From contig NZ_JADNBB010000031.1 of NCBI RefSeq assembly GCF_015550595.1, forward strand, positions 1 through 57,965: a DNA stretch of 57,965 nt, read 5' to 3'. The notes beneath the pieces are model-generated. The model had not been told where the DNA came from. It did not search any database and saw only the letters and a program-made list of their open reading frames with translations. A program made the translations under genes and the position numbers. Shown here piece after piece: positions 5,001 through 29,100 of this stretch; the first letter of the stretch is position 1; every line of letters begins with the position of its first letter. This DNA is from Parabacteroides goldsteinii. Its GTDB lineage: Bacteria; Bacteroidota; Bacteroidia; Bacteroidales; Tannerellaceae.

Positions 5001-5402
5001 GTACAATATAAAGGAACAAAACCATATTACAAAGAGCAATTGAATTATTGGACAGAAGAAAATAGAAATGCGACATTCCCACGTCTGACGTCTGCTACCT
5101 CCAGAAATGGAGATAACAATATTCAGAAATCGGATTTCTGGTTGAAAAATGCTTCTTTCTTAAGACTTAAAAACATACAATTGTCTTACGATTTGAAATA
5201 CAGCGTATTAAAGAATGTTGACTGGCTCAATATGTGTAGAGTGAATCTCTCTGGAGCCAATTTATTCACTATCTCAGGAATGAATAAATTTTACGACCCG
5301 GAAAGCCCTAATATCAATGACAAAGGAGAAACTTATGCAACAGACGGTAGTGCATATCCTGTACAGCGAGTGATAGCATTTGGTTTAACAGTCGGATTTT
5401 AA
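2052..5402 (+). CDS. SusC/RagA-type TonB-dependent outer-membrane glycan transporter with STN domain (PUL A)
   Basis: This is an 1116-residue protein. After a signal peptide (about 15-33) comes an STN domain (about 45-110), which talks to a FecR anti-sigma. A CarboxypepD-reg-like beta-sandwich follows (about 124-193, GNVTDKNGEPIIGANIFVKG), then the TonB-box-like DEVIVIGYGT at 200-209, the plug (about 210-325), and a long beta-barrel ending in aromatic FGLTVGF. It imports oligosaccharides with energy from TonB and is capped by the SusD lipoprotein encoded next. The STN domain is absent from the SusC proteins of PULs B and D but present in PUL C, matching the presence of sigma/FecR genes. The 125-bp upstream gap should hold the ECF-dependent promoter, whose sequence I do not recognise. 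Confidence 0.95.
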   Translation: MTFKFKRGLIIPIKNSKKLFFTLCLFVSGTLYSQNQMINLPKGANTIQIIFQEIERQTNLSVDYNQSKLNINKKIETKGQNKTLSSMLDEVLDGSGLTYKIEAGHILIIPATEVQEGGKSGKQIKGNVTDKNGEPIIGANIFVKGTTIGTVTDLNGQFSLNVPNNATIQISYIGYLPQEITIGNKRDISLILKEDTKILDEVIVIGYGTTSTRKMASAVTSVKGEKLQDLPFNDMSSTLQGRATGVIVQNQGGEPGSNAKISIRGGNDPVYVIDGVISTAWEFNTLNSVDIESLSVLKDAASLAVYGSRAADGIILVKTKQGSKGKTSITYTFNAEYSQPTVLMEKVDAYTYAETQNKAAMFDGLPAYHQYSEEEMNKILNQTDPLYPNVDWLDLGLKNFAPQYRHTLSMNGSGKLINYYLSLGMIDQGSLFTSNSLDYNRYTIRSNVNTTFDNIGLTVGVNLNGAIEKKNSPYIGAGTILGHLYSQLALTPAFNEDGTYSSATDHPLVDMDKRSGYNKNNKKYINAQFVADWNLPWVQGLSLGTMLNYRVSDEFKKEFNTRAPQYYPNGIDYPIAKPTLKESADFKESYNFEVSASYMNTFNEDHSIDAKAVFTVAENNGDNFWTSRKDYQSSAVDQIFAGSPVGILNDGSGEEGGRMGVVGRLKYDYKNRYIIEGSFRYDGSDNFAPGYRWGFFPSGAVAWALSEEPFFRSLNWKDVDLIKLRASYGQTGTENGVNRFGYMPVYDLDKNIIVIGGNMQSGFSEGKLVSPSLLSWYTRNSLNYGIDMAFLGNRLKGTADYFFYVTKGGLMSPSDRYTTPLGKDLPQIKSESEQRREGVEFSLRWSDKVGKDFTYDLGFNMTYFNNLWKVKADESMTDLMNPWKRTTNQTDFYDVRLVSQGYYQTVEQILNSPRRPQASELKFGDIAYRDINGDGKIDDQDQTRVGNTSMPHFTYGFDFSFGYKGFSLSGLLYGTGKRNMELSVQYKGTKPYYKEQLNYWTEENRNATFPRLTSATSRNGDNNIQKSDFWLKNASFLRLKNIQLSYDLKYSVLKNVDWLNMCRVNLSGANLFTISGMNKFYDPESPNINDKGETYATDGSAYPVQRVIAFGLTVGF

Positions 5403-12879: not shown

Positions 12880-12905
12880 TATCCTTACAACTATAAAAGT
12901 AGTAA

Positions 12906-15866
12906 ATGAAAAACAAGAGACTCTGTTTTACTTTTCTGTTTATTTTGATGGGCATTTGTATAAATGCTCATCAAAATGACTCTGTATTTACATTTAAAAC
13001 GGTAGAAAATTTGTATCCTGTTTTAAATGAAAAGATCAAAACGATACATACTCCAACCCCTGCATTTGTAAAAGGAACTACGCAGCCAACCCTATCATTA
13101 AACGGTAGTTGGTTGTTTACAAACAAAATAAACAATCCGTTTGAAGGAATAAGAAAAACAGATACCGAATGGTATTCTATTGATGTGCCCTCGGAATGGT
13201 ATATGGAATCCTTTCAGGTAGAACCTGGCAAATGGGCTGGATATTATAAAGAATTTGTACTTCCTTCAGACTGGAAGGAACAAAAAACACTGATTCGTTT
13301 CGGTGCTGTCGAAAGCGAATGCAAAATTTTTCTTAACGGGAAATATGTGGGAGAACATATAGGCTCCATGACACAATTTGAAAAGGATTTAACGCCTTTT
13401 TTACTTTCTGGGAAAAATCAATTGATAGTATATGTACGAAACGAATCATTGGCAAGCGAAATATCAAAGATCTCCCACTATGCAAAACATCAGGCCGGAG
13501 GAATATTGCGTGGAGTTGAATTGATTACTGTCCCCCAAACCTACATCAATGATCTGTATTGTAACGCTAAATTATCCGATAATCTGTCTCAGGGTATATT
13601 GGATATTCATATCTCATTATCCGGAAAACTTCAAAATAAAAAAGTCGAAGTAATTGTAAGGGAAAGAGGTATAGAAGGCTTACCTATGAACGGAAAAGTA
13701 ATCTATAATGAGAAGATGGCACTAAAACAGTTAAATCCCGTTACTATAGACGTTCCTAAATTGTGGCATGCCGAAACTCCTTTCCTGTATACTGTTGAAG
13801 TCGCTCTCCTGGAAAATGATGAAAAAACGGAAATTGTAAAAAGAAACTTCGGATTCAGAAAAATCCAAATAAAAGGGAATGTACTGTACGTCAATAATCA
13901 TCCGGTTAAACTAAGGGGTGTCTCCCGACATGACATCTCTGCTTACGACGGACGCGCGATAAGAGATACAGCCACTTTACGTCGGGATATCGAACAATTG
14001 CGTAATGCCAACTGCAACTATATCCGCACTTCTCATTATCCTCCTGACAGTTATATGCTGGATTTATGTGACCGATATGGTATTTTCGTTGAAGACGAAG
14101 CTCCCGTTTGTTGGGAATCCGGAAAAGATTCATACAACCGGATAGAGCAAATTTTTTATGGTTTCAAATCTATGGTAGTCAGAGACCGGTCACACCCTTG
14201 CATTTTACTCTGGTCTTTAGGGAATGAAAGTGATTGGAAACCTAAATTTTACAACAGTTTACTTTTAGCAAAGGAACTAACTCCCGATATTCCTGTTAAA
14301 TTCTCCCACTCAGAAACCCACGGGATTATTAAGGCAACCGATATCGGAACCAAGCATTATCCTGGTTGGAAAGGCTTAATGGCATTCGAAAATTACTTCC
14401 GCCCGATTATATTCGGGGAAGCTCTTCATTTGAATTGCTATAACACGTCTGAGAACATAACAGATCCCGGATTAAGGGATATGTGGGGGGATTATCTTAA
14501 GTATTTTGTTGATTTCATCCAGGAATCTCCCTCTATTAGCGGATTAGGTATCTGGGGATGTACCGACGAAATGTTTTATCCGAAAGGAAACAAACCCTGT
14601 GGATATGGCCCCTGGGGAGTAGTCGATGGATTCAGAAGGGAAAAACCGGAATTCTGGCATATGAAAATGTGTTACTCCCCTATTATTGTGACCAGTAAAC
14701 ATTTCCAAAGTTCCGGTAATGAAACACTGGTTACTTTGGAAAATCGCTACAACACACAAAATGCCAACCAAATAGAAATATTATGGAAAGATACGGATCG
14801 GCAAGGGACTGTAGAAATTGATATGGCCCCCGGGACGCAAGGGACTCTCCACATACCTCACAATGTAAAAGGAGATACCCTTACAATCACAATGAGAGAC
14901 CGACGGGGATTTGACCTATCTGTCTGGAAAATCCCAAGAAACTATTCACCTTATTATCTCATGCCTGAACTGTCGAAAGGAGAAGTAAAAGTCATTTCTT
15001 CAGATTCTTCTTACCAGATCACTTCAAAAGAGATTCAATACACTTTTTCCCGGACGACCGGCATGCTAGTCTCTGTCAAGAAAAAAGGAGAACAAATTAT
15101 AACCGGGCCGGTAAATATATATGCCATTCCTCATTTGAAGGAAAATGAAGTAATTGATTACATTCCACAAGAACGTTCGGGAGGAGAAGTAGGTTTTACC
15201 TCTGATCCCCTGACCGGTTGGACATTCGAATCCGAATGCTTGACGCATACAGAGAATGGTATTTCAATTACAATACACGGTAAGTATGGTGTAAATCCGA
15301 TAGAATTGGTATATTCCATTGATAACGACGAAAGACTCAAGATCGATTACATACTGAACATTTTCAAAATCGGCAATGGTATTCGGCAAATTGGGATAGG
15401 TTTCAATCTACCCAAAGCATATGATACAATAGGATGGAAACGAAAATCTCTGTGGAGTGTTTACCCCAATGATCATATCGGCCGTACTGAAGGGATAGCA
15501 AAAGCTTTCTATCCGGAAACCCAATCCGATTATCTCCAACAAAGAACGATTCCGACACACGGTTTTAATAAAGACGGGAATGAATACGGATCCAATGACT
15601 TCAGATCGACAAAGCAAAACATCATAACTGGCAAGCTGATCAATGAGAGAGGAAATGCTGTAACGATCGAATCGAATGGAAAACAACATTTTAGAGCTTG
15701 GGTTTTACAAGATGCAATAACTTTCTTGGTTGCCAACTATTCCGATGCCGGCAATGAGTTTTACCTCAATTACGATTCCAACAGGACAAGGTATCTGGAT
15801 TCATATATCGCTGAGGATGGGGACGTAGCCGGATGGATACAGCTTAATTTCAATCTTAACAAATAG
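12906..15866 (+). CDS. Glycoside hydrolase family 2, LacZ-like beta-galactosidase (PUL A)
   Basis: This 986-residue protein has a signal peptide (about 1-21). In order it has a GH2 sugar-binding domain, an immunoglobulin-like domain, a TIM barrel beginning near LRGVSRHDISAYDG, and a C-terminal Bgal_small_N-type domain (about 695-985), which is the five-domain LacZ layout. The acid/base is Glu441 (LGNESDW), and the nucleophile is probably Glu505 (IFGEALH). The conserved RTSHYPP segment is present. It hydrolyses terminal beta-linked galactose or a related sugar. It is the last gene of PUL A and is followed by a hairpin with a T-run. Confidence 0.93.
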   Translation: MKNKRLCFTFLFILMGICINAHQNDSVFTFKTVENLYPVLNEKIKTIHTPTPAFVKGTTQPTLSLNGSWLFTNKINNPFEGIRKTDTEWYSIDVPSEWYMESFQVEPGKWAGYYKEFVLPSDWKEQKTLIRFGAVESECKIFLNGKYVGEHIGSMTQFEKDLTPFLLSGKNQLIVYVRNESLASEISKISHYAKHQAGGILRGVELITVPQTYINDLYCNAKLSDNLSQGILDIHISLSGKLQNKKVEVIVRERGIEGLPMNGKVIYNEKMALKQLNPVTIDVPKLWHAETPFLYTVEVALLENDEKTEIVKRNFGFRKIQIKGNVLYVNNHPVKLRGVSRHDISAYDGRAIRDTATLRRDIEQLRNANCNYIRTSHYPPDSYMLDLCDRYGIFVEDEAPVCWESGKDSYNRIEQIFYGFKSMVVRDRSHPCILLWSLGNESDWKPKFYNSLLLAKELTPDIPVKFSHSETHGIIKATDIGTKHYPGWKGLMAFENYFRPIIFGEALHLNCYNTSENITDPGLRDMWGDYLKYFVDFIQESPSISGLGIWGCTDEMFYPKGNKPCGYGPWGVVDGFRREKPEFWHMKMCYSPIIVTSKHFQSSGNETLVTLENRYNTQNANQIEILWKDTDRQGTVEIDMAPGTQGTLHIPHNVKGDTLTITMRDRRGFDLSVWKIPRNYSPYYLMPELSKGEVKVISSDSSYQITSKEIQYTFSRTTGMLVSVKKKGEQIITGPVNIYAIPHLKENEVIDYIPQERSGGEVGFTSDPLTGWTFESECLTHTENGISITIHGKYGVNPIELVYSIDNDERLKIDYILNIFKIGNGIRQIGIGFNLPKAYDTIGWKRKSLWSVYPNDHIGRTEGIAKAFYPETQSDYLQQRTIPTHGFNKDGNEYGSNDFRSTKQNIITGKLINERGNAVTIESNGKQHFRAWVLQDAITFLVANYSDAGNEFYLNYDSNRTRYLDSYIAEDGDVAGWIQLNFNLNK

Positions 15867-15895
15867 ATGATATTTATTTTTTCATGAGAAAATGG

Positions 15896-15928
15896 CCATA
15901 GTCTGTGTAGGACTATGGTTCTTTTTTT
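15896..15928 (+). terminator. Terminator-like hairpin after GH2, overlapping the left inverted repeat
   Basis: CCATAGTC (15896-15903) pairs with GACTATGG (15911-15918) across a 7-nt loop and is followed by TTCTTTTTTT. It ends PUL A transcription about 30 bp past the last stop codon. The same bases form the left arm of the inverted repeat described separately, so this hairpin may be both a terminator and a recombination site. Confidence 0.7.
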
Positions 15929-15953
15929 AATCAATATTTATTAAGGAGAACGA

Positions 15954-16001
15954 ATGTTGCAAATCAGAATAAATTTTGTTTTCCCAATAAATAAATACTA
16001 G
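15954..16001 (+). other. Tiny open frame with Shine-Dalgarno site inside the candidate inverton
   Basis: AAGGAG at 15943-15948 precedes an ATG at 15954 that opens 15 codons (MLQIRINFVFPINKY) and stops at 16001. It could be a leader peptide, a decayed gene start or chance. It matters because inversion would point it away from SusC. Confidence 0.15.
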
Positions 16002-16078
16002 AATCTATCTATTTATCTCCATTACTAAAACTTTAAACATTGTAAACAGACTGAATTACAGCACGTTTTTCAACGAAT

Positions 16079-16086
16079 CAAATTTA
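16079..16086 (-). promoter_or_regulatory. Candidate -7 box inside the invertible segment, facing away from SusC
   Basis: On the minus strand the bases read TAAATTTG, a full match to TAnnTTTG. It is the only full match on either strand between the inverted repeats. No good -33 TTTG is present at 19-21 bp. In the sequenced orientation it points left, away from PUL B SusC, so if real the switch would be in the OFF state here. Confidence 0.25.
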
Positions 16087-16344
16087 TAACATCTTATTCC
16101 TTCTTTCCAGTTTTTCATTCTTTGAGTAGTGGATTATATGGAGTTTATTGTGAAATTAAGTATACATAACGGAATTACTATTGTTTCATTTAGTATGTAG
16201 ACACTTTGTTTCAACTCGAAAAACACGATACACATATCTATATATCAGCAATATACGAAAACCACTGCCTACCATAGTCCTACACAAACTATTACCTATT
16301 TCTCTCTATAATATTTATTATTTATTTAAAATCTTAAAAGAATT

Positions 16345-19300
16345 ATGAGGAAACAATTCAGAAGTGTAGTATGTGCCATAGGCATCCTTTCCGGCTCCCT
16401 TCCGGTATTGGGTGTAACACATGCTACTAGTAGTGAAGCCTCCGGAAATATTCTACAATCCGGAAGTGTTAACCAAAAAGGCAAAACAATCACAGGGACA
16501 GTTGTTGATGAAACCGGCTTGCCAGTGATAGGAGCCAACGTTGTACAAAAAGGTACGACGAACGGTATTATTACTGATATAGACGGACGATTTTCATTGG
16601 ATGTTCCGGAAGGAACCACTTTGGAAATTTCTTATATCGGCTATTTAACCCAAACGATACCGGTTGGAAGTAAATCTTCGTTCCAAATCACTCTACGGGA
16701 AGATACACAAAAACTAGACGAGGTCGTTGTTGTCGGTTTCGGTACACAGAAAAAAGCAAATATGACAGGAGCTGTAGCAACGGTATCAGGAGATGATTTG
16801 ACCAAGAGACCTGTATACAATGTAGCTTCTTCTTTGCAAGGTAAATTACCCGGTTTATCAATATCTCAAGGTTCAGGACAGCCTGGTGGCGAATCTATAA
16901 GTATGCGTGTTCGTGGTATGGGTACATTCTCTGATGCAGGCTCTGATCCTTTGGTAATAATAGATGGTATCGCAGGAGATATCAATAGTATTAATTCGTC
17001 GGATATAGAAAATGTAACGGTATTGAAAGATGCTGCTTCTGCGGCAATTTACGGTGCCCGCGCTGCCAATGGTGTAATATTGATTACAACCAAAAGCGGA
17101 AAGTCCGGGAAAATGAATATCACGTATGACGTTAATTATGCAGTTCATAACCCGACAAGGATGCTGGAATTGGTAACAAACTCGGCTGACTATATGGAAT
17201 TGAAGAATGAAGCATTGAAAAACTCAGGATTGTCTTCTAATAGAATGTATCCACAGGAAACCATTGATTTGTACAGAAATGCGACTGATCGGACGAAATA
17301 TCCTAATTATGATTGGATTGACTTGATGTTTAATCCGGCATTGGCTTACTCTCATAATTTGAATGTAAATGGTGGAGGTGAGAAAACGTCCTATAACGCA
17401 TCTTTAGGATATTCGAATCAGGATGGTGTTATGAGAGGATTCAACAATCAGAAAGTAAATTTTAGTATCAACACGAAAACCGATATAAACAAATACATCT
17501 CTTTCGGAACGAAAGCCAACATGTATTATTATGATCAGGAAGCTCCTGTTGTCGGTGCTTCAGATTTGTTCCTTTCTACTCTGGCACAAGCTCCAACATA
17601 CGGTCCTACTTTGCCAGATGGAAGATATGCATATCGGGCTTACGATTATGAAGATAATAACAAGAACCCGTATGCCAATGCTAAAGAGGCTTTAAGTAAT
17701 ACACGTGGTTATGATGTAAGTGCACAAGCCTGGGTGGATATTAAATTTACTGATTACCTGACATGGCATACGAAAGGGGCTGTGAACGGAACTTTCAAAA
17801 AAGGCAAATCTTTTTATCCGTTAATTCCTCAATACAACTGGCATACAGGTGACTTCTCCACCAATCTGAATGTAGCTGGAACAAATAAATCTTTAACAGT
17901 GAAAGATGAGAATGACATGTTAGTGACATTGTACAGCCATTTGACATTCGATAAAAGATTCGGCGATCATTCACTAAAAGTATTGGCCGGCTATAATCAA
18001 GAGTCTTATAAATATGAATATCTGCAAGGATACAGAGAAGGATTTCCCGGAAACAATCTGCATGAAATCAATGCCGGTGCGACAAATGGACAAAAGGCAG
18101 AAGGCTCTGCCAAAGAATGGGCCATCCAGTCGTTCCTGGGACGTGTGAACTATGATTATCTAGGGAAGTATCTTGTGGAAGGTAATATTCGTTATGACGG
18201 AACTTCCCGTTTGCATAAAGACTCCCGCTGGGGGGCATTTCCATCAGTATCTGTAGGATGGCGTATGTCGGAAGAAAGTTTTATGAAACCGCTTACTTTT
18301 GTTAGTAATTTGAAATTGAGAGCCTCTTTCGGTGAATTGGGTAACCAGAATATCGGTAATTATCCTTATCAAGAAATGCTGAAATTAGGTTATAATTATG
18401 TATTCGATAATCAAGCTGTATCTCCCGGAGCAGCTCCGGAAAGTTTAGCCAATCAGAATTTACTTTGGGAAAGAACCAGTGCCTGGGATATTGGTGCAGA
18501 TGTATCCGTTTTAGATAATAAACTATCTTTTGTGTTCGACTGGTATAAGAAAGAAACAAAAGATATTCTTCGTTCGTCTCAAATTCCAGGAAGTATTGGA
18601 TTAAATGCTCCAACGGTCAATAACGGAGGCGTAACCAATACTGGTATCGAATTAAGTGTTACCCACCAAAATCAATTGGAAAACGGTCTATATTACTCTG
18701 TTTCGGCAATGATTAATAAAAATAAAAATGAATTGACAACCTTTGGTGAAAATGAAATAGGTACTTATTCTATAAAACAAGAAGGACAACCCTGGAATTC
18801 ATTCTACCTGTATAAATGGGTTGGTATTTTCCAAGATGAAGAGGAGATCAAGAATCATGCTACACAACCGTATAATCCGCAACCGGGTGATTTGAAATAT
18901 GAAGATATCAGCGGACCGGACGGTAAGCCGGATGGTAAAATCGATTCTCATGATAAGGTAATTGTGGAAGGTCGTTTCCCGAAATTCGAATACTCATTCA
19001 ATCTGAATGCAGAATATAAGAATTTCTATATATCTGCCTTTTTCCAAGGGGTACAAGGTATTAAATTCTATGTTGGCGGATGGGGGTTTGAGCCTTTCTG
19101 TCAAGGTGCAGCTCCTACTGTTGACTGGATGGATCGTTGGACCCCGGAAAACAAGACAAATGAAAAACCTCGTATTTATGTAGGTAGAGAAACTCCTGCC
19201 ATGTCTGGTATGCCGTCTACTTATTTCTTGCAAAATGGTTCGTATTTCCGCTTAAAGAATCTGCAAGTCGGATATACATTCGAACAAGAATGGCTTAAAC

Positions 19301-19461
19301 AGATCAAAGTGAATTCAATTCGCCTATATTTCTCTGGAGATAATTTGTTTACAATTACGAAATATCCTTACCTGGATCCGGAAAGATCCAGCAGTGACGG
19401 TTCGTTCGCTCTTTATCCCCAAAACAGAGTACTTTCTTTAGGCGCTAGTGTCAACTTTTAA
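16345..19461 (+). CDS. SusC/RagA-type TonB-dependent outer-membrane glycan transporter (PUL B)
   Basis: This is a 1038-residue protein. After the signal peptide (about 1-27) it goes straight to the CarboxypepD-reg-like domain (about 48-121, GTVVDETGLPVIGANVVQKG), the TonB-box-like DEVVVVGFGT at 125-134, the plug, and the barrel ending LGASVNF. There is no STN domain, and no sigma/FecR pair accompanies this operon, so its control must differ from PUL A. Upstream is the candidate invertible promoter ending 48 bp before the start. It pairs with the SusD encoded immediately downstream. Confidence 0.95.
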   Translation: MRKQFRSVVCAIGILSGSLPVLGVTHATSSEASGNILQSGSVNQKGKTITGTVVDETGLPVIGANVVQKGTTNGIITDIDGRFSLDVPEGTTLEISYIGYLTQTIPVGSKSSFQITLREDTQKLDEVVVVGFGTQKKANMTGAVATVSGDDLTKRPVYNVASSLQGKLPGLSISQGSGQPGGESISMRVRGMGTFSDAGSDPLVIIDGIAGDINSINSSDIENVTVLKDAASAAIYGARAANGVILITTKSGKSGKMNITYDVNYAVHNPTRMLELVTNSADYMELKNEALKNSGLSSNRMYPQETIDLYRNATDRTKYPNYDWIDLMFNPALAYSHNLNVNGGGEKTSYNASLGYSNQDGVMRGFNNQKVNFSINTKTDINKYISFGTKANMYYYDQEAPVVGASDLFLSTLAQAPTYGPTLPDGRYAYRAYDYEDNNKNPYANAKEALSNTRGYDVSAQAWVDIKFTDYLTWHTKGAVNGTFKKGKSFYPLIPQYNWHTGDFSTNLNVAGTNKSLTVKDENDMLVTLYSHLTFDKRFGDHSLKVLAGYNQESYKYEYLQGYREGFPGNNLHEINAGATNGQKAEGSAKEWAIQSFLGRVNYDYLGKYLVEGNIRYDGTSRLHKDSRWGAFPSVSVGWRMSEESFMKPLTFVSNLKLRASFGELGNQNIGNYPYQEMLKLGYNYVFDNQAVSPGAAPESLANQNLLWERTSAWDIGADVSVLDNKLSFVFDWYKKETKDILRSSQIPGSIGLNAPTVNNGGVTNTGIELSVTHQNQLENGLYYSVSAMINKNKNELTTFGENEIGTYSIKQEGQPWNSFYLYKWVGIFQDEEEIKNHATQPYNPQPGDLKYEDISGPDGKPDGKIDSHDKVIVEGRFPKFEYSFNLNAEYKNFYISAFFQGVQGIKFYVGGWGFEPFCQGAAPTVDWMDRWTPENKTNEKPRIYVGRETPAMSGMPSTYFLQNGSYFRLKNLQVGYTFEQEWLKQIKVNSIRLYFSGDNLFTITKYPYLDPERSSSDGSFALYPQNRVLSLGASVNF

Positions 19462-19473
19462 ATCAAATTGGAA

Positions 19474-20997
19474 ATGAAAAAATATATAATATATGCTTCG
19501 GCGTTATTAATGACGGTTACATCCTGTGACTCTTTACTGGATAAACAACCGTTAGATCAATTAGCATCAGAAACTTTCTGGAAAACAGAGTCGGACGTGG
19601 AAATGGCATTGACTGCTTGCTACAGTATGTTGAATAACTCGTTAATGTCATGGGATTTGACAACATTGGATGCTATGTCGGATGATTTGTATCACCAACA
19701 CGGACATTATGGGATTAACGCCTTATCCAGAGGCATTATAGAGCCCACAAGCGGAGGAGCTGTCAGTGATATATGGAACTATTCCTATAAAGGTATAGCA
19801 AAATGCAACTTCTTCCTGGATGGCATAGAAGCTGTGGAAATGGATATGGCTAAAAAAGATGCATATAAAGCTGAAGCCCGCTTTTTGAGAGCTCATTTCT
19901 ATTTTTACTTAGTTGAATTTTATGGAGGTGTCCCTCTTTATTTAACAACACCTACGGTAGAAGAAGCTAAAACAACTACACGTTCTTCGAAAGAAGATGT
20001 GTTGGAAGTTATATACGAAGATCTGGATTTTGCTATCGAAAAGTTGGCAGATAAACCATACAATGGTCATTGCGTCAAAGCTTCTGCCATAGCATTGAAG
20101 TCACGTGTACTACTTCATAACGAACAATGGATAGATGCTGCAAAATTGGCTAAGCAAGTCATGGATAATACGAATTTCGGCTTAAGTGAAAATTATATGG
20201 ATATATGGGATGCACAAAAGCAAGAGAATAATCCGGAAATAATATTCTCTGTCAAATATCTCAATCCAGACTTCGCTCAACCTTTTTATGGAGCTGATAT
20301 TGTATTCAACTGGTGGCATTCAACAGGTCCTTTGAAATATATAATCAATGTGTATGAATGCGAAGACGGTAAAGATATTTCAGAATCTCCGCTTTACGAT
20401 CCCGAGCATCCTTATGAGCATCGTGATCCCCGTTTAAGATGGTGTAATTATGTAGATATGGATCCCTGGTATTACGGACAGGACGTTTTGGGTGATGGAG
20501 TCAAAAGATGGAGACCCGGTTTCTCCGGAGGAGATGCAGCAGCTGCAACAGACTTTTTGTTGAAGAAATTCTCGACTGAATCTTATTTCCCAATAAGTTA
20601 TTCTACTAAAACAGATTATGATGCCGTGTTGATTCGTTATGCAGAAGTCTTGTTGATGTATGCAGAGGCACAGAATGAAAGTGCAGGTCCGGATCAATCC
20701 GTCTACGATGCCGTGAATGCAGTTAGAGAACGTGTTGGAATGCCTCAGTTACCTACAGGTTTAAGCAAGGAGCAAATGCGTGAAAAAATCCGGAAAGAAC
20801 GTCGCATAGAATTGGCCTATGAAGGCAAGCGTTATATGGATTTGAAACGCTGGAAGATCGCGCATGAAGTTATTCCTACAGTCGTAAATCCTGGAGGAAC
20901 AACTCGTTCCTTTGAGAATCCGAAACATTACCTGTTCCCGATTCCTCAAAGTGAAATCGATATTAACGGCAACCTGGAACAGAATCCCGGATATTGA
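19474..20997 (+). CDS. SusD/RagB-type glycan-binding surface lipoprotein (PUL B)
   Basis: I chose the ATG at 19474 because it opens a clean lipoprotein signal peptide (MKKYIIYASALLMTVTSC, Cys18). An in-frame TTG six bases earlier is unlikely. The 507-residue protein has the SusD signatures: LLDKQPLDQLASETFW at the N-terminus, RFLRAHFYFYLVEFYGGVPL, the RKERRIELAYEGKRYMDLKRW segment near residue 445, and the ending FPIPQSEIDIN...QNPGY. It follows SusC by 12 bp. It binds the imported glycan at the surface; specificity is unknown. Confidence 0.95.
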   Translation: MKKYIIYASALLMTVTSCDSLLDKQPLDQLASETFWKTESDVEMALTACYSMLNNSLMSWDLTTLDAMSDDLYHQHGHYGINALSRGIIEPTSGGAVSDIWNYSYKGIAKCNFFLDGIEAVEMDMAKKDAYKAEARFLRAHFYFYLVEFYGGVPLYLTTPTVEEAKTTTRSSKEDVLEVIYEDLDFAIEKLADKPYNGHCVKASAIALKSRVLLHNEQWIDAAKLAKQVMDNTNFGLSENYMDIWDAQKQENNPEIIFSVKYLNPDFAQPFYGADIVFNWWHSTGPLKYIINVYECEDGKDISESPLYDPEHPYEHRDPRLRWCNYVDMDPWYYGQDVLGDGVKRWRPGFSGGDAAAATDFLLKKFSTESYFPISYSTKTDYDAVLIRYAEVLLMYAEAQNESAGPDQSVYDAVNAVRERVGMPQLPTGLSKEQMREKIRKERRIELAYEGKRYMDLKRWKIAHEVIPTVVNPGGTTRSFENPKHYLFPIPQSEIDINGNLEQNPGY

Positions 20998-21496: not shown

Positions 21497-22864
21497 ATGA
21501 ACAAAAAAAAGAGGCAATACCCCAAATGCCTACTCCTGCTTGCCACATGTTTTGTTACTTTTGCCGCATCTGCACAAGATGACGAAGTGGCAAAAGCACA
21601 ACACACCATCCTCGGACAGAACTCGGCACAAGTAGGCGTTTCTGTTCCGATAAGGAATACGCATCCGGATGCACAATGGTTTCCTCAAGATGGTTTCGGA
21701 TTGTTTATACACTTTGGACTGGCAACCGTTCATGGAGGAATCGATCTGTCCTGGAGTATGTTAGCAAATAAATCCTGGGAAGACGGAGAAATAACTCCCA
21801 ATGCCTACTGGAAATTAGCAGACCGGTGGAATCCGGTCAATTTCAACGCCGAAGAAATTGTCACTAAAGCAAAAAAAGCCGGTTTCAAATACATCGTATT
21901 CACAACTAAACATCATGATGGTTATACTATGTGGCCGAGTAAATACAGTGCTTTAGGGGTTAAACAGAAACTAAACGGACGTGATTTGGTTAGAGAGTTT
22001 ACGGATGCCTGCCATAAAAACGGTATAAAAGTCGGACTGTATTATTCTCCACCTGATTGGTTGTTCGATGCACAGTACAAAAATTGGGATTATTCCGGAA
22101 AGAAAATCCTGGATATGGATCATAAGGAAATTAATCGACTACCAGAAAAACCAGCCGGACATGATCAGGCACGAAGAGAAATGGTTGCCAACCAAATGCG
22201 TGAACTACTTACCCAATACGGTAAAATCGATCTCTTTTGGTTTGACGGAGGAAGCGGTGAAATATCAAATGATGAAGTCAGAAAGTTACAACCGGGTATC
22301 GTCATTAACCGTCGAAACGGAGAACCCGGAGATTACGGAGACTCAGAAGGTACACTACCCACAAAACGATTCACCGGATGGTTCGAAACATGTGACCCAT
22401 GCTGGCCCAGCCGTTGGTGGACTTATTCTACCAGCGACCGGATGGACACAGGAGCTGATGTAATAGAGAAATTGGTTATCCTGCGTGCCTGGGGAGGAAA
22501 CTTACTGGCAAATATAGGCCCTTGTGCCGATGGAAGCCTGCCAAAAGAAGCCTTAGAGGCTTGGGATGAAATAGAAAAATGGATGAAACATTCCGGAGAA
22601 TCCGTTTATGATGTGACCGGTGGTTCCTTCCCTGAGAAAGCCAACCAACCGACCACAATAAAAAAGGATATAGTTTATATACACGCATTCCCGAATTTCC
22701 ATAAAACCATTGTTCTGAAAGAGATACAATCCTCTCCCAAGCAAGCGATATTATTACGGACAGGGGAAACCATTCCATTCTCTTATGCAGAAGGAGAGAT
22801 CCACATACAGGTGTCTCCTGAAAAACGTTCACGTATGGTAGATACAATTAAACTGACATGGTAA
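21497..22864 (+). CDS. Glycoside hydrolase family 29 alpha-L-fucosidase (PUL B)
   Basis: This 455-residue protein has a signal peptide (about 1-26, ending ASAQ). The GH29 barrel shows the FGLFIHFGLATVHGG entry, the YIVFTTKHHDGYTMWPSKYS metal-like His pair motif of the family, and the nucleophile Asp250 in LFWFDGG. The GNLLANIGPCADGSLP motif (about residues 334-349) is also classical. A small beta-sandwich closes the protein from about residue 380. It releases alpha-linked L-fucose. The stop codon overlaps an in-frame ATG of the following GH95 frame, and the two genes are co-transcribed. With GH95 encoded next, the operon covers both retaining and inverting fucosidase mechanisms. Confidence 0.94.
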   Translation: MNKKKRQYPKCLLLLATCFVTFAASAQDDEVAKAQHTILGQNSAQVGVSVPIRNTHPDAQWFPQDGFGLFIHFGLATVHGGIDLSWSMLANKSWEDGEITPNAYWKLADRWNPVNFNAEEIVTKAKKAGFKYIVFTTKHHDGYTMWPSKYSALGVKQKLNGRDLVREFTDACHKNGIKVGLYYSPPDWLFDAQYKNWDYSGKKILDMDHKEINRLPEKPAGHDQARREMVANQMRELLTQYGKIDLFWFDGGSGEISNDEVRKLQPGIVINRRNGEPGDYGDSEGTLPTKRFTGWFETCDPCWPSRWWTYSTSDRMDTGADVIEKLVILRAWGGNLLANIGPCADGSLPKEALEAWDEIEKWMKHSGESVYDVTGGSFPEKANQPTTIKKDIVYIHAFPNFHKTIVLKEIQSSPKQAILLRTGETIPFSYAEGEIHIQVSPEKRSRMVDTIKLTW

Positions 22865-22887
22865 TAACTTCTAAACTTTATCTATCA

Positions 22888-25290
22888 ATGAAAACTCTAA
22901 TAATTTCAACATGTATCTTGTGTTTTACTGCCTGCACTGTAGAACACAAAAAAGCACCATTGACACTATGGTATAACACACCCGCCGATGCCACCGTCGC
23001 TGATAATCCCCATGCAGGCTACAAAGACGATCCGGAATGGCTGAAAGCTTTACCACTAGGCAACGGTTCTCTGGGAGCCATGATCTTCGGAGATGTACAC
23101 AAGGAACGCATCCAACTGAATGAAGAGACCCTATGGTCGGGAAGCATGCAGCATTGCGATAACCCGGAAGCAGCCAAGCATGTGGAGAAGATCAAGCAGC
23201 TATTGTTCGAAGGCAAATACAAAGAAGCCACAGAGTTGACAAACCGTACGCAAATTTGTACCGGGAAAGGCTCCGGACACGGACAGGGTTGTAACGTCCC
23301 TTTCGGATGTTACCAAACCTTGGGAGACCTGTGGATCGACTTCGATAACAAATCTCCCTACACCGATTACCGTAGGGAACTGAATCTGGATAACGCGACA
23401 GTCCGAGTTTCTTACAAGCAAGGAGAGGCCAATTTCAAACGTGAAATCTTTATCAGCCACCCAGACCAAGCGATGGTCATGCGGTTATCGGCAGATAAAA
23501 AACAACAACTCGCTTTCACTTGTCGGCTGAACCGGCCGGAACGTTATTCCACTTATGCAGAAAACGAACAATTGATCATGGCGGGGGTTCTTTCAGATGG
23601 TAAAGGAGGCGACGGACTTCAATACATGACCCGGCTAAAAGCTGTGCCGGTAAATGGCTCCGTCACCTACTCCGATTCGACGCTGACAGTGAAAGGAGCC
23701 GACGAGGTTTTACTTTTCCTGACCGCCTCAACGGATTACAAAATGGAATACCCCTCCTACAAAGGACGCGATTTCCGCGGTATCACCGAAGCATCCTTAA
23801 ACAATGCCGCCAAGAAATCATATAACCAGCTTTACAAAGCGCACGTAAAAGAATATGCTACCTATTTCCAAAGAACCTGCTTGTTGCTGACCGACGCCCC
23901 CGATACAATACCGACTGACGTAAAGGTACAAAACGCCCGGAAAGGAACGATAGACCCTCACCTATACGAACAGATGTTCCAATACGGCCGTTATCTCTTA
24001 ATCGCGTCATCGCGACCGGGAACCATGCCTGCCAACTTGCAAGGAATCTGGGCTAACAAACTGCAGACAGCTTGGAACGGCGACTATCATACTGATGTCA
24101 ATATCGAAATGAATTACTGGCCTGCCGAAGTAACCAACCTGTCGGAGTTGCACCTGCCAATGTTCGATCTGATCGCTTCGCTGGTTGAACCGGGAACCAA
24201 GACGGCACAAATCCAATACAACAAAAAGGGGTGGGTAGTACACCCCATCACCAATATATGGGGATATACTTCTCCGGGGGAAAGTGCTTCCTGGGGGATG
24301 CATACCGGTGCTCCGGCATGGATTTGCCAACATATCGGCGAACACTACCGGTTTACGGGCGATAAGGACTTTTTGCGTAAGACCTATCCGGTCTTAAAAG
24401 GGGCGGTTGAGTTTTACATGGACTGGTTGACTGAAAACCCGAAAACAAAAGAGCTGGTTTCCGGACCCGCCGTTTCTCCGGAAAATACCTTTGTCGCTCC
24501 CGACGGTAGCCATAGCCAGATCAGCATGGGACCAGCTCACGACCAGCAAACCATCTGGCAACTATTTGACGACTTCGCGATGATCTCCAACGAATTATCC
24601 ATCGATGACGACTTTACCCGCCAGGTAGTCGATGCCCAAAAACGCTTGGCCGGAACGAAGATAGGTGCTGACGGACGTATCATGGAATGGGCGGATGAGT
24701 TTCCGGAGGTAGAACCCGGCCACCGTCATATCTCCCACCTGTTCGCCATCCATCCGGGATCGCAGATTAACATGCTGCAAACTCCCGACTTGGTCGAGGC
24801 AGCCAACAAATCGCTGGATTACCGCATCCAGCATCGCAGAGGGTATGTCGGTTGGAGTTCCGCCTGGGCAATCAGCCAGTACGCCCGCTTGCATCAGGCT
24901 GAAAAAGCAAAAGAAAACCTGGATGATATCATCGGAAAATGCATCAACCCGAACCTCTTCACAATATGTCCTCCTTTCCAGATCGACGCTAACTTCGGAA
25001 CAACGGCAGGTATAGCCGAAATGTTGTTACAGAGTCATGTGTACGATCAGGGACAGGAAAGCTATATTATCCAACTGCTCCCCTCCCTTCCCGCCGATTG
25101 GAAGAAAGGAGAGTTCTCCGGCTTAAAAGCCCGTGGAGGATTTGAAGTGGCTGTGAAATGGGAAAACGGAGAAATTGTAGACGCTTCCGTTAAATCGTCA
25201 CAAGGGAACAAATGCCGTATCTGGTATAACGGCGACTATTTACAGACAAACGATTTGAAAAAAGGGGAAACCTGGAAATGGCATAAATAA
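22888..25290 (+). CDS. Glycoside hydrolase family 95, alpha-L-fucosidase-like (PUL B), with an Asn-to-Asp change at a catalytic position
   Basis: The start at 22888 gives an 800-residue lipoprotein (MKTLIISTCILCFTAC, Cys16). An earlier ATG at 22858 overlaps GH29 and lacks a signal peptide. GH95 motifs are clear (LPLGNGSLGAMIFGD, general acid Glu600 in RIMEW, Asp700 in QIDANFG). The paired catalytic Asn motif reads His401-Thr-Asp403-Val-Asn405, so the first Asn is Asp here, whereas the PUL A paralogue keeps Asn405-x-Asn407. The retained His suggests fucose recognition. It may be an ordinary natural variant or have an altered base. The two window copies are clearly diverged and not a recent duplication. 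It lies in one operon with GH29 and the phosphodiesterase, whose start is 2 bp downstream. Confidence 0.9.
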   Translation: MKTLIISTCILCFTACTVEHKKAPLTLWYNTPADATVADNPHAGYKDDPEWLKALPLGNGSLGAMIFGDVHKERIQLNEETLWSGSMQHCDNPEAAKHVEKIKQLLFEGKYKEATELTNRTQICTGKGSGHGQGCNVPFGCYQTLGDLWIDFDNKSPYTDYRRELNLDNATVRVSYKQGEANFKREIFISHPDQAMVMRLSADKKQQLAFTCRLNRPERYSTYAENEQLIMAGVLSDGKGGDGLQYMTRLKAVPVNGSVTYSDSTLTVKGADEVLLFLTASTDYKMEYPSYKGRDFRGITEASLNNAAKKSYNQLYKAHVKEYATYFQRTCLLLTDAPDTIPTDVKVQNARKGTIDPHLYEQMFQYGRYLLIASSRPGTMPANLQGIWANKLQTAWNGDYHTDVNIEMNYWPAEVTNLSELHLPMFDLIASLVEPGTKTAQIQYNKKGWVVHPITNIWGYTSPGESASWGMHTGAPAWICQHIGEHYRFTGDKDFLRKTYPVLKGAVEFYMDWLTENPKTKELVSGPAVSPENTFVAPDGSHSQISMGPAHDQQTIWQLFDDFAMISNELSIDDDFTRQVVDAQKRLAGTKIGADGRIMEWADEFPEVEPGHRHISHLFAIHPGSQINMLQTPDLVEAANKSLDYRIQHRRGYVGWSSAWAISQYARLHQAEKAKENLDDIIGKCINPNLFTICPPFQIDANFGTTAGIAEMLLQSHVYDQGQESYIIQLLPSLPADWKKGEFSGLKARGGFEVAVKWENGEIVDASVKSSQGNKCRIWYNGDYLQTNDLKKGETWKWHK

Positions 25291-25291
25291 C

Positions 25292-26248
25292 ATGAAAAAT
25301 ATGAAAAACTCAAGAAGAAACTTCTTTAAAAAAGGATTGGCGGGAGCTGTCGCATTAGGCACTGCCTCCATTACCCGACCTGTAACGGCAGCTACTGCCA
25401 AAGTGAATGCACCTGCTGCCAAACGCATCGTATTGATCTCACTCGATGGAATCTGCGTCGACGGATTCCTGAAAGCAAAAACACCGAATCTGGACGCATT
25501 ACTGGCTGAAGGTTCCCTCTCATTGGACACACGCGTGGTCATGCCCTCGGTCACACTACCCAACTGGACCAGCCATCTTTGCGGAAGCGGTCCGGAACAA
25601 CACGGCATAGTCGACAATAGCTGGGAGATCTCCAAATTCGTATTACCCGCGATCGAGAAAGACAGTGCCGGATATTACCCCTCTGTGTTCAAAGTATTGA
25701 AAGACGCAATTCCGGAAGCAAAAACTGCCTTCTATTACAATTGGATCAACCTGTTCTATCCATACAACAAACAATATTTGGATGAAGTCAGCTATCTGGA
25801 AAACGATGCCTATGTGCCAAACTATGAGAAAGCACTCTCTTTCCTGATGGAGAACCGCAAAAAACCAACACTGGTATTCCTCTATTCCGTACATACCGAC
25901 CATGCCGGTCACAAACATAAATGGATGTCACCGGAATACATACAATCCATCGAGGAAGCCGATGTAGAGATCGGAAAATTCATCGAAAAGATGAAACAGG
26001 AAGGATTATACAAAGATACTCATTTCTTGTTCCTGACAGATCATGGCGGTATTAACTACGGACATGGCGGAGTAAGTACAGACGAAATGATCGTCCCCTG
26101 GGGTATCGCCGGACCGGGAATAAAGAGAGGATTCAAGATCACGGAAGCCAATAACACGGTAAACACAGCAGCCATCATCCTGCACCTGTTCAAGATTAAA
26201 CAACCCTTATCCTGGACAGGTGAAGTGATAAAGACAATATTCAAATAA
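25292..26248 (+). CDS. Alkaline-phosphatase-superfamily phosphodiesterase/nucleotide pyrophosphatase, Tat-exported
   Basis: This 318-residue protein starts with a twin-arginine signal (NSRRNFFKKGLAGAVALG), implying export in folded, metal-loaded form. The start could equally be the second Met at 25301. Metal and catalytic residues of the type I phosphodiesterase branch are visible: Asp52 (SLDG), nucleophile Thr88 (SVTLPNWTSH), Asp203/His207 (HTDHAGHKH), Asp250/His251 (LTDHGG) and His258. The Thr nucleophile separates it from sulfatases, which use Cys or Ser in CxPSR. It sits between two glycosidase genes, 2 bp after GH95 and 17 bp before GH2. A role removing a phosphodiester-linked group from the glycan is inference; the true substrate is unknown. 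Confidence 0.88.
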   Translation: MKNMKNSRRNFFKKGLAGAVALGTASITRPVTAATAKVNAPAAKRIVLISLDGICVDGFLKAKTPNLDALLAEGSLSLDTRVVMPSVTLPNWTSHLCGSGPEQHGIVDNSWEISKFVLPAIEKDSAGYYPSVFKVLKDAIPEAKTAFYYNWINLFYPYNKQYLDEVSYLENDAYVPNYEKALSFLMENRKKPTLVFLYSVHTDHAGHKHKWMSPEYIQSIEEADVEIGKFIEKMKQEGLYKDTHFLFLTDHGGINYGHGGVSTDEMIVPWGIAGPGIKRGFKITEANNTVNTAAIILHLFKIKQPLSWTGEVIKTIFK

Positions 26249-26265
26249 TCCTATAACAAAAAACA

Positions 26266-29100
26266 ATGACAACACTCAAAAGTTTTCTACTTCTTTTGTG
26301 CATCAGCTTCTCTTTACAGGCTTATGGACAGGAAAAAGTAACCACCCGGGAAGTTCTGTCCTTAGACAAAGGATGGAGTTTTCATAAGGGAGATATCCCC
26401 TACCCGGTTATTAAAGGACACAACGCGACCTACCGGAACGCCAAAGCGGGATACGTGAGTGGAGCCGCTTCCCCGAACCACGACGATTCTTCCTGGCGCA
26501 TCGTAAACCTTCCTCACGACTGGGCTATCGAAGGGAACGTAGATCCGGAAGCCAACCTTTCGCAAGGATACTACAATCGCGGTTTCGGTTGGTACCGCCG
26601 TAAATTCAAACTGTCTCCCGAAGATAAAGGGAAACATCTGGAAATACAGTTTGATGGTATCGCCACACATGCAACGATCTGGGTAAACGGAACCGTACTG
26701 CATCGTAACTGGTGCGGATACACCTCCATGTATATCGACATCACTCCGTATGCCACTTATGGGGATAATGTAAACACCATTGCCGTACGCGTGGATGCGG
26801 ATGCCCAGGAGGGTTGGTGGTATGAAGGAGCCGGTATTTACCGTCATACCTGGCTGGTAAAACGTTCGCCGCTGCATATCATTACCGATGGTGTATTTGC
26901 TCATCCTGTAAAGAAGAACGACAACCAATGGGAAATACCCGTGGAAGTTTCTTTGTATAACTCGGGAAAGTTACCGGCAGACGGAGAAGTCGAAGTAACC
27001 CTGTTCGCTCCCGATGGCAAGCAAATGACAACACTGTCAAAAGCAGTCTCTGTCACAGCATTGAGAGAAAGTATTGCCAATCTCCCGCTGACCGTGTCAG
27101 ACCCGCAACTTTGGTCACCCGACAATCCTACCCTCTACAAGGTAAAGACTACGGTGAAACAAAACGGCACCATAACCGACGAGGTCGAAACCAAATGCGG
27201 TTTCCGTACAATCCGTTTCGATAACAACACAGGTTTTTGGCTGAATGGGGAAAACATCAAGATAAAAGGTGTTTGTAACCACCAGGATCATGCCGGAGTC
27301 GGTGTTGCTGTTCCCGATGCACTTTGGGAATTCCGCCTGCGCAAACTGAAAGAGATGGGAGTCAATGCCTATCGTGTAGCTCACAATCCGGTTGCCAAAG
27401 AGTTTATGGCTGCTTGCGACAGCATGGGTATCATGGTGTTGGATGAAAACAGGTTGTTCAACACTTCACCCGAATATGTTCGTCAACTGGAGTGGCAAGT
27501 ACGCCGCGACCGTAACTGTCCGAGCGTAATCCTTTGGTCTGTTTTCAACGAAGAACCGATGCAGGGCACGGAAAACGGGGTTGAAATGGTTCGTCGTATG
27601 TACGACGTAGTGAAAAAGATGGACCCGACACGCCCTATAACAGCTGCAATGAACGGAGGATTCTTCTCTGAATATAATGTATCGCAGGCTGTAGATGTCG
27701 GAGGGTTCAACTATCAGATCGAAAGTTACGACCGTTTCCACGAAGCCAATCCAAACCTACCTCTGACCAGTTCGGAAGACGGTTCCGCCTTTATGATAAG
27801 GGGTGAATATGTCACAGACCGGTCGAAGAACCTGATGGATTCATACGATACGCAATGTGCAGACTGGGGAGCCACCCATCGCAGAGCCTGGAAAGCCGTG
27901 GCAGAACGCCCCTGGATGGCAGGGTGCTTCTACTGGACCGGATTCGATTATCATGGTGAGCCGACTCCGCATCGCTGGCCTACAGTCAGTTCTTTCTTCG
28001 GTATCATGGACTTATGCGGCTTCCCCAAAATGGCTTATTACTTACACCAGGCACAATGGGTAAAGGATAAAGATATCCTGGAACTGGTGCCTCACTGGAA
28101 CTGGCCTGCCGACTCCATCGGAAAGCCTATCAAAGTAATGGCATTGAGCAACGCGGATAAAGTAAAGTTATTACTGAATGGCAAAGTTATATCCGAACAA
28201 GTAGTCGACCCATATGAAATGAATACCTGGTCTGTTCCTTATAAACCAGGCAAACTGGAAGCCATCGGCTACAAGAACGGAAAGGTCGTCTCACGTGCCA
28301 AAGTGGAGACAACCAAGGACCCCGTCCAGGTTCGCCTGACACCGGACCGTAACAGTTTGGCCAGTGATGGTCGTGACGCTATGCCGATCACCGTAGAAGT
28401 GATAGACTCCAAAGGCCGTCATGTACCAACAGCCGACAATATGATGGAATTCACCCTGACGGGTCCCGCCGAAATCATCGGTGTAGGAAACGGTAATCCG
28501 AACTGCCACGAGCCGGAAAAGGGTAATAAACGCAGCCTGTTCTATGGACTTGCACAAGTCATCATCCAGAGCAAAGAAGGTTCAGGGCCAATCACTCTGA
28601 CTGCCTCGACTCCGGGATTAAAACCGGCAACGATCACGATCAATACCGAAGAGGTCGCTCCCATACCATCCGTCGCACCAGAGTTTCCTCCAATGTTGCT
28701 GAACAGATGGGTAGCCTCTTCCCTTTCCACAGACAAACCTGACGCAACCCGTCAGATTGCCGATAACGATATGAACAGCTGGCAACCCGTTACAAGTGGC
28801 GACCTGATCAAACTGGAGAATGCTAAATTCGTCATTTTACGTGCGACATTCAATCCTTATCAGGCCCATCGGGAAGAAGGCGGAAGTATCCTTTTCAAAC
28901 AACTGACAGGGAAAGCCGAAATCTGGCTGAACGGTCAACTGATCGGCTCTAAAACGACAGATGAGGAAGAAGACTTCACCGTTGAATTTTCTTCTGTCAA
29001 GGATAGATGTGACCTGCGGGTACTGCTGAATGGTGCGACAGGTGAAGCTGTAGGCTTAAAAGGAAATGTAACAGTCCGGACGAAACTGGCTGTAAAATAA
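26266..29100 (+). CDS. Glycoside hydrolase family 2, probable beta-galactosidase with DUF4982-type C-terminus (PUL B)
   Basis: This 944-residue protein has a signal peptide (about 1-21, ending AYG). The GH2 sugar-binding domain carries LPHDWAIEG and GWYRRKFKL. An Ig-like domain follows, then the TIM barrel with GVCNHQDHAGVG and acid/base Glu429 (SVFNEEP). The nucleophile is probably Glu504 (TSSEDGSA). Next are a DUF4982-like domain (about 620-690), an invasin-like beta domain (about 695-800) and a last beta-sandwich. This layout differs from the LacZ-type GH2 of PUL A, so linkage specificity probably differs too. It ends the operon and is followed by a strong bidirectional terminator. Confidence 0.93.
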   Translation: MTTLKSFLLLLCISFSLQAYGQEKVTTREVLSLDKGWSFHKGDIPYPVIKGHNATYRNAKAGYVSGAASPNHDDSSWRIVNLPHDWAIEGNVDPEANLSQGYYNRGFGWYRRKFKLSPEDKGKHLEIQFDGIATHATIWVNGTVLHRNWCGYTSMYIDITPYATYGDNVNTIAVRVDADAQEGWWYEGAGIYRHTWLVKRSPLHIITDGVFAHPVKKNDNQWEIPVEVSLYNSGKLPADGEVEVTLFAPDGKQMTTLSKAVSVTALRESIANLPLTVSDPQLWSPDNPTLYKVKTTVKQNGTITDEVETKCGFRTIRFDNNTGFWLNGENIKIKGVCNHQDHAGVGVAVPDALWEFRLRKLKEMGVNAYRVAHNPVAKEFMAACDSMGIMVLDENRLFNTSPEYVRQLEWQVRRDRNCPSVILWSVFNEEPMQGTENGVEMVRRMYDVVKKMDPTRPITAAMNGGFFSEYNVSQAVDVGGFNYQIESYDRFHEANPNLPLTSSEDGSAFMIRGEYVTDRSKNLMDSYDTQCADWGATHRRAWKAVAERPWMAGCFYWTGFDYHGEPTPHRWPTVSSFFGIMDLCGFPKMAYYLHQAQWVKDKDILELVPHWNWPADSIGKPIKVMALSNADKVKLLLNGKVISEQVVDPYEMNTWSVPYKPGKLEAIGYKNGKVVSRAKVETTKDPVQVRLTPDRNSLASDGRDAMPITVEVIDSKGRHVPTADNMMEFTLTGPAEIIGVGNGNPNCHEPEKGNKRSLFYGLAQVIIQSKEGSGPITLTASTPGLKPATITINTEEVAPIPSVAPEFPPMLLNRWVASSLSTDKPDATRQIADNDMNSWQPVTSGDLIKLENAKFVILRATFNPYQAHREEGGSILFKQLTGKAEIWLNGQLIGSKTTDEEEDFTVEFSSVKDRCDLRVLLNGATGEAVGLKGNVTVRTKLAVK

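Follow-up and report, generated by a model that had tools for sequence, protein, structure and literature searches.

Organization of the locus

The window, i.e. the whole stretch of DNA that was analyzed, is an entire contig (C24) of 57,965 bp from a Parabacteroides goldsteinii assembly of 85 contigs and 6.53 Mb. It carries two glycan operons, PUL A and PUL B, separated by a pair of inverted arms. The relevant features are:

304..858, plus strand: ECF sigma factor, PUL A
917..1927, plus strand: FecR anti-sigma factor, PUL A
2052..5402, plus strand: SusC with an STN domain, PUL A
12906..15866, plus strand: GH2, the final gene of PUL A, with its stop codon 27 bases before the left arm
15894..15919, plus strand: left arm, with the recombination core AGTCT-GTGTA-GGACT at 15900-15914
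15920..16270: segment between the arms, 351 bp, putatively invertible
16271..16296, minus strand: right arm, with the core at 16276-16290 reading AGTTT-GTGTA-GGACT on the minus strand and having the same spacer
16345..19461, plus strand: SusC-like receptor of PUL B, with Plug and CarbopepD_reg_2 domains and no STN match at E≤1e-3
19468..20997, plus strand: SusD-like protein, PUL B
21497..22864, plus strand: alpha-L-fucosidase (Pfam Alpha_L_fucos), PUL B
22858..25290, plus strand: GH95 protein, PUL B
25292..26248, plus strand: type I phosphodiesterase/sulfatase-like protein, PUL B
26266..29100, plus strand: GH2 protein, PUL B

All genes of PUL A (ECF sigma, FecR, SusC with STN, SusD, GH95, GH35 and GH2) lie on the plus strand, up to position 15866. 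PUL B has no adjacent sigma/FecR gene, as the initial annotation had stated, and its SusC lacks the STN domain; an STN match is present in both sigma/FecR-linked SusCs of the window. Among eight aligned SusCs that are 74-87% identical to that of PUL B (relatives P0241-P0252), some have an STN domain and some do not, which suggests that swaps between sigma-linked and other control may have occurred.

The 26-nt arms match at 23 positions, differ at three and have in common a perfect 16-nt core, and 48 bases separate the end of the right arm (16296) from the SusC start (16345); both descriptions were accurate as initially given. The inverted pair can also be drawn as 34-nt arms (15886-15919 and 16271-16304) that are 85% complementary with 351 nt between them, and the runner-up inverted repeat within 15000-17000 measures 14 nt. 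Both arms contain a core of two half-sites, AGTYY-N5-RRACT, around the common spacer GTGTA, and each is near-palindromic, the left one reading CCATAGTC-TGTGTAG-GACTATGG. Rfam gave one match, whose 21 bits fell short of the gathering score of 100, and a sigma-70 scan of 15700-16500 returned one hit with 3.6 expected.

A genome-wide family of same-spacer inverted sites

The whole assembly was searched for further copies of the arm core, as had been proposed. The exact 16-mer TGTGTAGGACTATGGT is present only at the two window arms; with up to three mismatches, the core was found at further places in the genome, also with inverted partners. The arm sequence, previously described as unfamiliar, turned out to belong to a large family in the same genome that resembles the site of Tsr0667 from Bacteroides fragilis.

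A very loose core, AGTYYNNNNNGDACT, is hardly in excess on the two strands (218 matches versus 202 for the reversed control), relaxed patterns gave 44 matches versus 29 in the control, and CATAGTYC-N5-GRACTATG with at most two mismatches gave 32 sites versus 10. The pairing of the sites is what stands above chance. Among the loose-core matches listed for contigs C1-C19, at least 14 pairs of sites lie no more than 700 bp apart, of which 12 are inverted with identical 5-nt spacers and two (C2:45287/45477 and C6:47130/47776) do not fit this rule. Perfect cores 60-700 bp apart, taken from 23 sources comprising the 22 pair loci and L220, have identical spacers in 20 cases and spacers differing at 4-5 positions in two, but because these sources were chosen for their pairs, the count of 12 in 14 is the less biased one. 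In total, at least 22 same-spacer inverted pairs, the window's included, were found in this genome, and the 22 pairs analyzed below were selected for the site and a matching spacer. Spacers differ between pairs, which would fit a requirement for spacer identity in strand exchange. The same-spacer inverted AGTYY-N5-RRACT pair provides a simple rule by which such switches can be listed.

Several sites are arranged differently. A perfect 21-bp site at C9:71978 (L220) has no same-spacer partner within 2.5 kb. Same-spacer inverted sites also lie far apart, at C11:30022/56279 (26 kb) and C85:54276/62052 (7.8 kb), and matching spacers occur on two contigs (C22:372869 and C23:2994); these far-apart and two-contig pairs could possibly mediate large inversions.

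In titles and abstract openings covering part of the literature, we found no publication on an AGTYY-N5-RRACT site family in Parabacteroides. A P. distasonis genome has been scanned for invertible regions (PMC10939037).

Inversion of sister segments in related genomes

Site regions from two related genomes, G009 and G037 (20 from each), were compared with our 22, using both flanks and segments. Of the 20 resulting comparisons, 16 with a match in the segment plus one or both flanks were used, and four with matching flanks only or a matching segment only were dropped. The segment was oriented against its flanks in four of the 16 (L211/L287, L214/L274, L214/L253 and L202/L277), which represent three sister segments; the orientation was the same in the other 12. 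Seven of the 16, four flipped and three unflipped, were compared in detail. In the flipped ones the outer flanks were kept and the inner sequences were exchanged at the core, and the inverted score exceeded the direct one throughout: 467 versus 22 for L211/L287, 184 versus 9 over 194 bp for L214/L274, 103.5 versus 7 for L214/L253 and, in the weakest case, 153.5 versus 56.5 for L202/L277, with segments of 414 and 534 bp. Three sister segments are therefore flipped in related species, indicating that the site class is active. For L211/L287, L212/L276 and L214/L253, the spacers differ between species and both arms still agree (agreeing spacers being required by the script), which is best explained by continuing exchange.

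Of 37 other genomes of the genus, two gave a match to the window region itself (15700-16500), and both matches were short, one being a gene end of 135 bp and the other measuring 30 bp; no further counterpart was found. The window segment had no plasmid match, and no viral contig carried the exact arm letters. The nearest SusC in the named genome collection, 79-80% identical, comes from a Parabacteroides MAG (L064); it has no arms, and TAATTTTG is located 38 nt before its start. This MAG corresponds to genome G026 (1,200 identical bases), in which the relative of the candidate invertase described below is only partial (47% identity, residues 104-340) and which has one site versus one in the control. 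Because the window segment has no counterpart in relatives, its flipping is deduced from its class, and through this class the prediction that the segment is phase-variable and invertible is well supported.

The window pair might nevertheless be a relic whose sites are recognizable, whose segment no longer flips and which leaves PUL B locked OFF. Consistent with this, its 5' half-sites are AGTCT and AGTTT, versus AGTTC or AGTCC in most sisters, and its segment has no sister-like promoter (see below). However, the spacer identity has been retained, the arm identity of 23/31 falls inside the sisters' range of 17-25, and L202, which also has AGTCT, is in the opposite orientation in G037, so that we consider a relic improbable.

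A candidate invertase and its distribution

The genome contains 48 PF00589 matches, one of which adjoins sites of this class:

G000 C55:118890-120050, off the window: candidate tyrosine recombinase of 387 aa with Arm-DNA-bind_5, Phage_int_SAM_5 and Phage_integrase domains

Its best named match, 96% identical, is from P. goldsteinii, and its best-scoring paralog in the same genome is 30% identical. The gene comes after SusC/SusD cassettes whose SusC frames start at class sites: in the C55 locus (L128), the sites are at 2777 and 7520, the SusC frames begin at 2771 and 7556, and the recombinase occupies 12391-13554. These two sites point in the same direction instead of being inverted. The SusC frames of the cassettes have no CarbopepD_reg_2 domain, and the stretch at 2771-11908 of L128 likely represents silent shufflon cassettes without the N-terminal domain. 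Judging from its position and co-occurrence with the sites, the C55 recombinase is the likely trans-acting invertase of the family.

A full-length relative of this protein (at least 59% identity) was found in 18 of 38 genomes of the genus, our own included, and a partial one in seven. Stretches around 20 relatives (17 full-length and three partial; 16 stretches of 20 kb and four cut by contig ends) contained same-spacer inverted pairs in 10 cases, whereas 20 base-shuffled versions of the full set of stretches contained none. The site density was 2.59 per Mb in the 18 genomes with a full-length relative versus 0.83 per Mb in 13 without it (Mann-Whitney p=0.001; control pattern p=0.24; sites minus control p=0.016), with the seven partial-relative genomes left out and no correction for relatedness or genome size. 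Seven of the 18 (G002, G004, G017, G018, G019, G023 and G025) show no site excess over the control, G021, which lacks a relative, has 15 sites versus 8 in the control, and G008 and G010, counted as 'without', contain fragments of one. Given the 48 PF00589 matches, another recombinase is possible.

Outside the genus, relatives above 50% identity were found in two of the 247 genomes drawn from the order (the draw included the genus itself): G096 (54%) and G201 (53%, with stops). The G096 protein, which exactly matches a named protein of Bacteroides pyogenes, adjoins a SusC frame. The B. fragilis protein P0128 is 51% identical to the C55 recombinase (213 of 415 aligned columns) and bears no BF0667 name.

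A recombinase on C50, beside pair L119, was considered as the invertase and rejected; it is 33% identical to the C55 protein over residues 116-383, like other paralogs. A second switch family was also observed, consisting of six tyrosine recombinases of 304-317 aa, each adjoining inverted repeats CTTATT...AATAAG located 323-480 bp apart:

C85:15602 (L111)
C66:137843 (L114)
C66:237585 (L113)
C33:98256 (L116)
C11:424662 (L112)
C85:210100 (L110)

At a further locus, L115 (recombinase at C66:62484), perfect 23-nt inverted repeats are found at 2638-2660 and 2868-2890. The latter is located in the 3'-terminal part of the recombinase gene (2859-3848, minus strand), and inversion would therefore alter the C-terminus of the enzyme itself.

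Genes and promoters associated with the 22 pairs

SusC-like receptors adjoin 14 of the 22 pairs. The pairs are distributed as follows:

Adjoining a SusC-like receptor: the window, L201, L202, L206, L207, L209, L211, L212, L213, L214, L215, L217, L218, L219
Adjoining an ECF sigma factor gene: L208, L216, L127
Adjoining FecR: L205
Before HU-type DNA-binding/DUF4469 proteins: L203 (protein at 3791-4564), L204 (2746-3525)
Adjoining an outer-membrane efflux protein: L210
Adjoining a sulfatase: L119

None of the 14 switch-adjoining receptors has an STN match (E≤1e-3), whereas the sigma/FecR-linked SusCs of the window do, a hint that inversion and sigma signaling may be alternative controls of glycan uptake.

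The sequence TAnnTTTG, given as the Bacteroides -7 element in PMC4747536, occurs in 21 of the 22 segments, versus a mean of 8.5 and a maximum of 16 in shuffles (n=300). In 15 of the 22 segments, the motif is located 14-35 bp inward of one arm and fires outward. At the 14 receptor loci, the motif points towards the receptor in four (L202, L209, L211 and L214), away from it in eight (L201, L206, L207, L212, L213, L215, L217 and L219) and both ways in L218; in the window it is located mid-segment and faces away. Because these directions are mixed, the assembly looks like a mixture of putative ON and OFF states.

Promoter or terminator at the putative window switch

Two predicted elements between PUL A and PUL B bear on how the window switch would act:

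16079-16086, minus strand: TAAATTTG, the sole perfect TAnnTTTG within 15867-16345, directed away from SusC as assembled; weak evidence for a promoter
15885..15929, plus strand: predicted intrinsic terminator consisting of the left arm and its flanking A- and U-tracts

The segment could be an ordinary invertible promoter, in which TAAATTTG or a promoter of another type drives SusC in one orientation and the terminator insulates PUL A. The prevalence of TAnnTTTG in the class segments is in line with this, as is the frequent involvement of promoters in Bacteroidales inversions described in PMC10939037, and when the segment was flipped in silico the motif faced SusC, at position 16104, about 230 bp upstream. 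However, 48% of shuffled window segments also contain such a motif, no arm-proximal promoter of the sister type was found in the window segment, and a PWM built from 15 sister promoters reached at best 2.3 bits there, versus 13.5-22.7 bits on its own training set. We regard an ordinary invertible promoter as plausible, if somewhat short of probable. A promoter motif common to the leader of the PUL A SusC (1921-2052) and the segment was also sought, and the 10-mer obtained, TTCAACGAAT, was rejected, as 74% of shuffles reach its local score.

The predicted terminator, whose overlap with the left arm had no mention in the initial annotation, has a folding energy of -20.1 kcal/mol (z -5.75), and none of 200 shuffles was as good. 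A terminator scan likewise marked 15894-15920 on the plus strand, being one of two hits on both strands versus 0.6 expected. The U-tract (15920-15928) is part of the segment and would be carried along when the segment inverts; in the in-silico flip, the left hairpin folds with -14.9 kcal/mol and lacks the U-tract, and no strong plus-strand terminator appears at the right arm. Since the sigma/FecR-led, co-directional PUL A ends 27 bases before the left arm, these features open a model of a promoterless segment, in which polymerases reading through from PUL A would transcribe PUL B and the terminator would gain or lose its U-tract with each inversion. The prediction of a terminator in the assembled orientation only, the absence of TAnnTTTG between the right arm and SusC, and the precedent of the cwpV switch (PMC2784873) are in agreement with this model.

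In a comparison of the 22 pairs, in which the first arm met from each side was evaluated, an orientation-dependent arm terminator was clear in two, the window and L206, with L214 being intermediate. The L206 arm (2345-2395) forms the same kind of hairpin, a near-perfect terminator on both strands (-25.6 kcal/mol on the minus and -22.2 kcal/mol on the plus strand); in the 22-pair comparison, its plus strand gave -18.3 kcal/mol as assembled and -1.4 kcal/mol flipped. As assembled, the promoter of L206 faces away and the hairpin arm lies between the segment and the receptor. Two clear cases in 22 are few, the flipped window hairpin still folds, and operons are normally followed by a terminator, so that its presence here may be a coincidence; we therefore treat a pure terminator switch as possible but doubtful. 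That the left arm is by itself a good predicted terminator could also mean that its likeness to a sequence 350 bp away arose by chance, but with a same-spacer partner, a genome-wide family and flipped sisters, this is extremely improbable.

The initial annotation had proposed a phase-variable region, with reference to the invertible promoters before SusC genes in B. fragilis. Its phase-variable part holds by class, i.e. through the site family, the flipped sisters and the linked recombinase; the promoter part did not find equivalent backing in the segment. Taken together, 15894-16296 is probably an invertible switch of the site-specific type, belonging to a Tsr0667-like system of SusC/SusD phase variation. 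The best reading of the sequence is a phase switch assembled OFF that would act by terminator and/or promoter. In the mechanism we envisage, the trans-acting C55 tyrosine recombinase would exchange strands within the common spacer and turn the segment round. In the assembled orientation, the operon of the PUL B SusC and fucosidase is predicted to be OFF, as the left arm with its U-tract would end PUL A transcripts and the sole perfect -7 motif is directed away from SusC. Once the segment was inverted, the hairpin would lack its U-tract and transcripts from PUL A could therefore continue into PUL B, and the -7 motif would point towards SusC. The two elements would form a double lock, with a terminator and a misdirected promoter in the OFF state, and the terminator lost and the promoter turned in the ON state.

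Should the terminator model be correct, inversion would also be a means of placing one glycan operon under the control of another. A further, tentative idea, which we consider rather unlikely, is that a recombination site recognized by a master SusC invertase also serves as an intrinsic terminator and that inversion couples and uncouples PUL B and the sigma/FecR-led PUL A, as a cwpV-like switch in Bacteroidota; if true, regulon membership itself would be phase-variable.

Comparison with known systems

Our results suggest that Parabacteroides makes large-scale use of the SusC phase-variation machinery known from B. fragilis: a single site code covers at least 22 candidate switches, three of which are flipped between species. 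The Tsr0667 recombinase of B. fragilis reportedly is a tyrosine recombinase located beside a SusC/SusD cassette cluster, and its site consensus is reported as AGTYYYN4GDACT. The system described here shares with it the tyrosine recombinase by SusC/SusD cassettes with sites at frame starts (the C55 locus), the half-sites AGTYY and RRACT around a short spacer, which are close to that consensus, and inversion at the sites, in our case for the three sister segments and not for the window's. The reported targets of Tsr0667 are three SusC/SusD clusters and nine other regions (PMC4747536, PMC11852207); likewise, our genome has many distant inverted-repeat pairs, many of them (14 of 22) near SusC. The systems differ in that the sixth base of the core is G in the window and Y in that consensus, that the C55 recombinase is 51% identical to the B. 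fragilis homolog P0128, and that the window segment has a predicted terminator arm and lacks a sister-like promoter.

Mpi of B. fragilis is a serine recombinase with other repeats. It resembles the proposed invertase in being one master enzyme for many regions, 13 in its case, of which seven are capsule promoters (PMC4747536).

In the cwpV switch of Clostridioides difficile, an intrinsic terminator is predicted at the junction of the left repeat and the segment in one orientation and is altered by inversion (PMC2784873). The two switches share the orientation-dependent terminator at the left-repeat junction (in the window by prediction), imperfect repeats and a promoter upstream of the switch, here putatively that of the co-directional PUL A; the gene starts 57 bp after the repeats in cwpV and 48 bp after them in the window. 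The phylum, recombinase and sites are different, and the transcript entering the window switch would come from a complete glycan operon. The window switch would be a further member of the known SusC/SusD kind of phase variation, with a putative terminator variant that has its closest parallel in cwpV.
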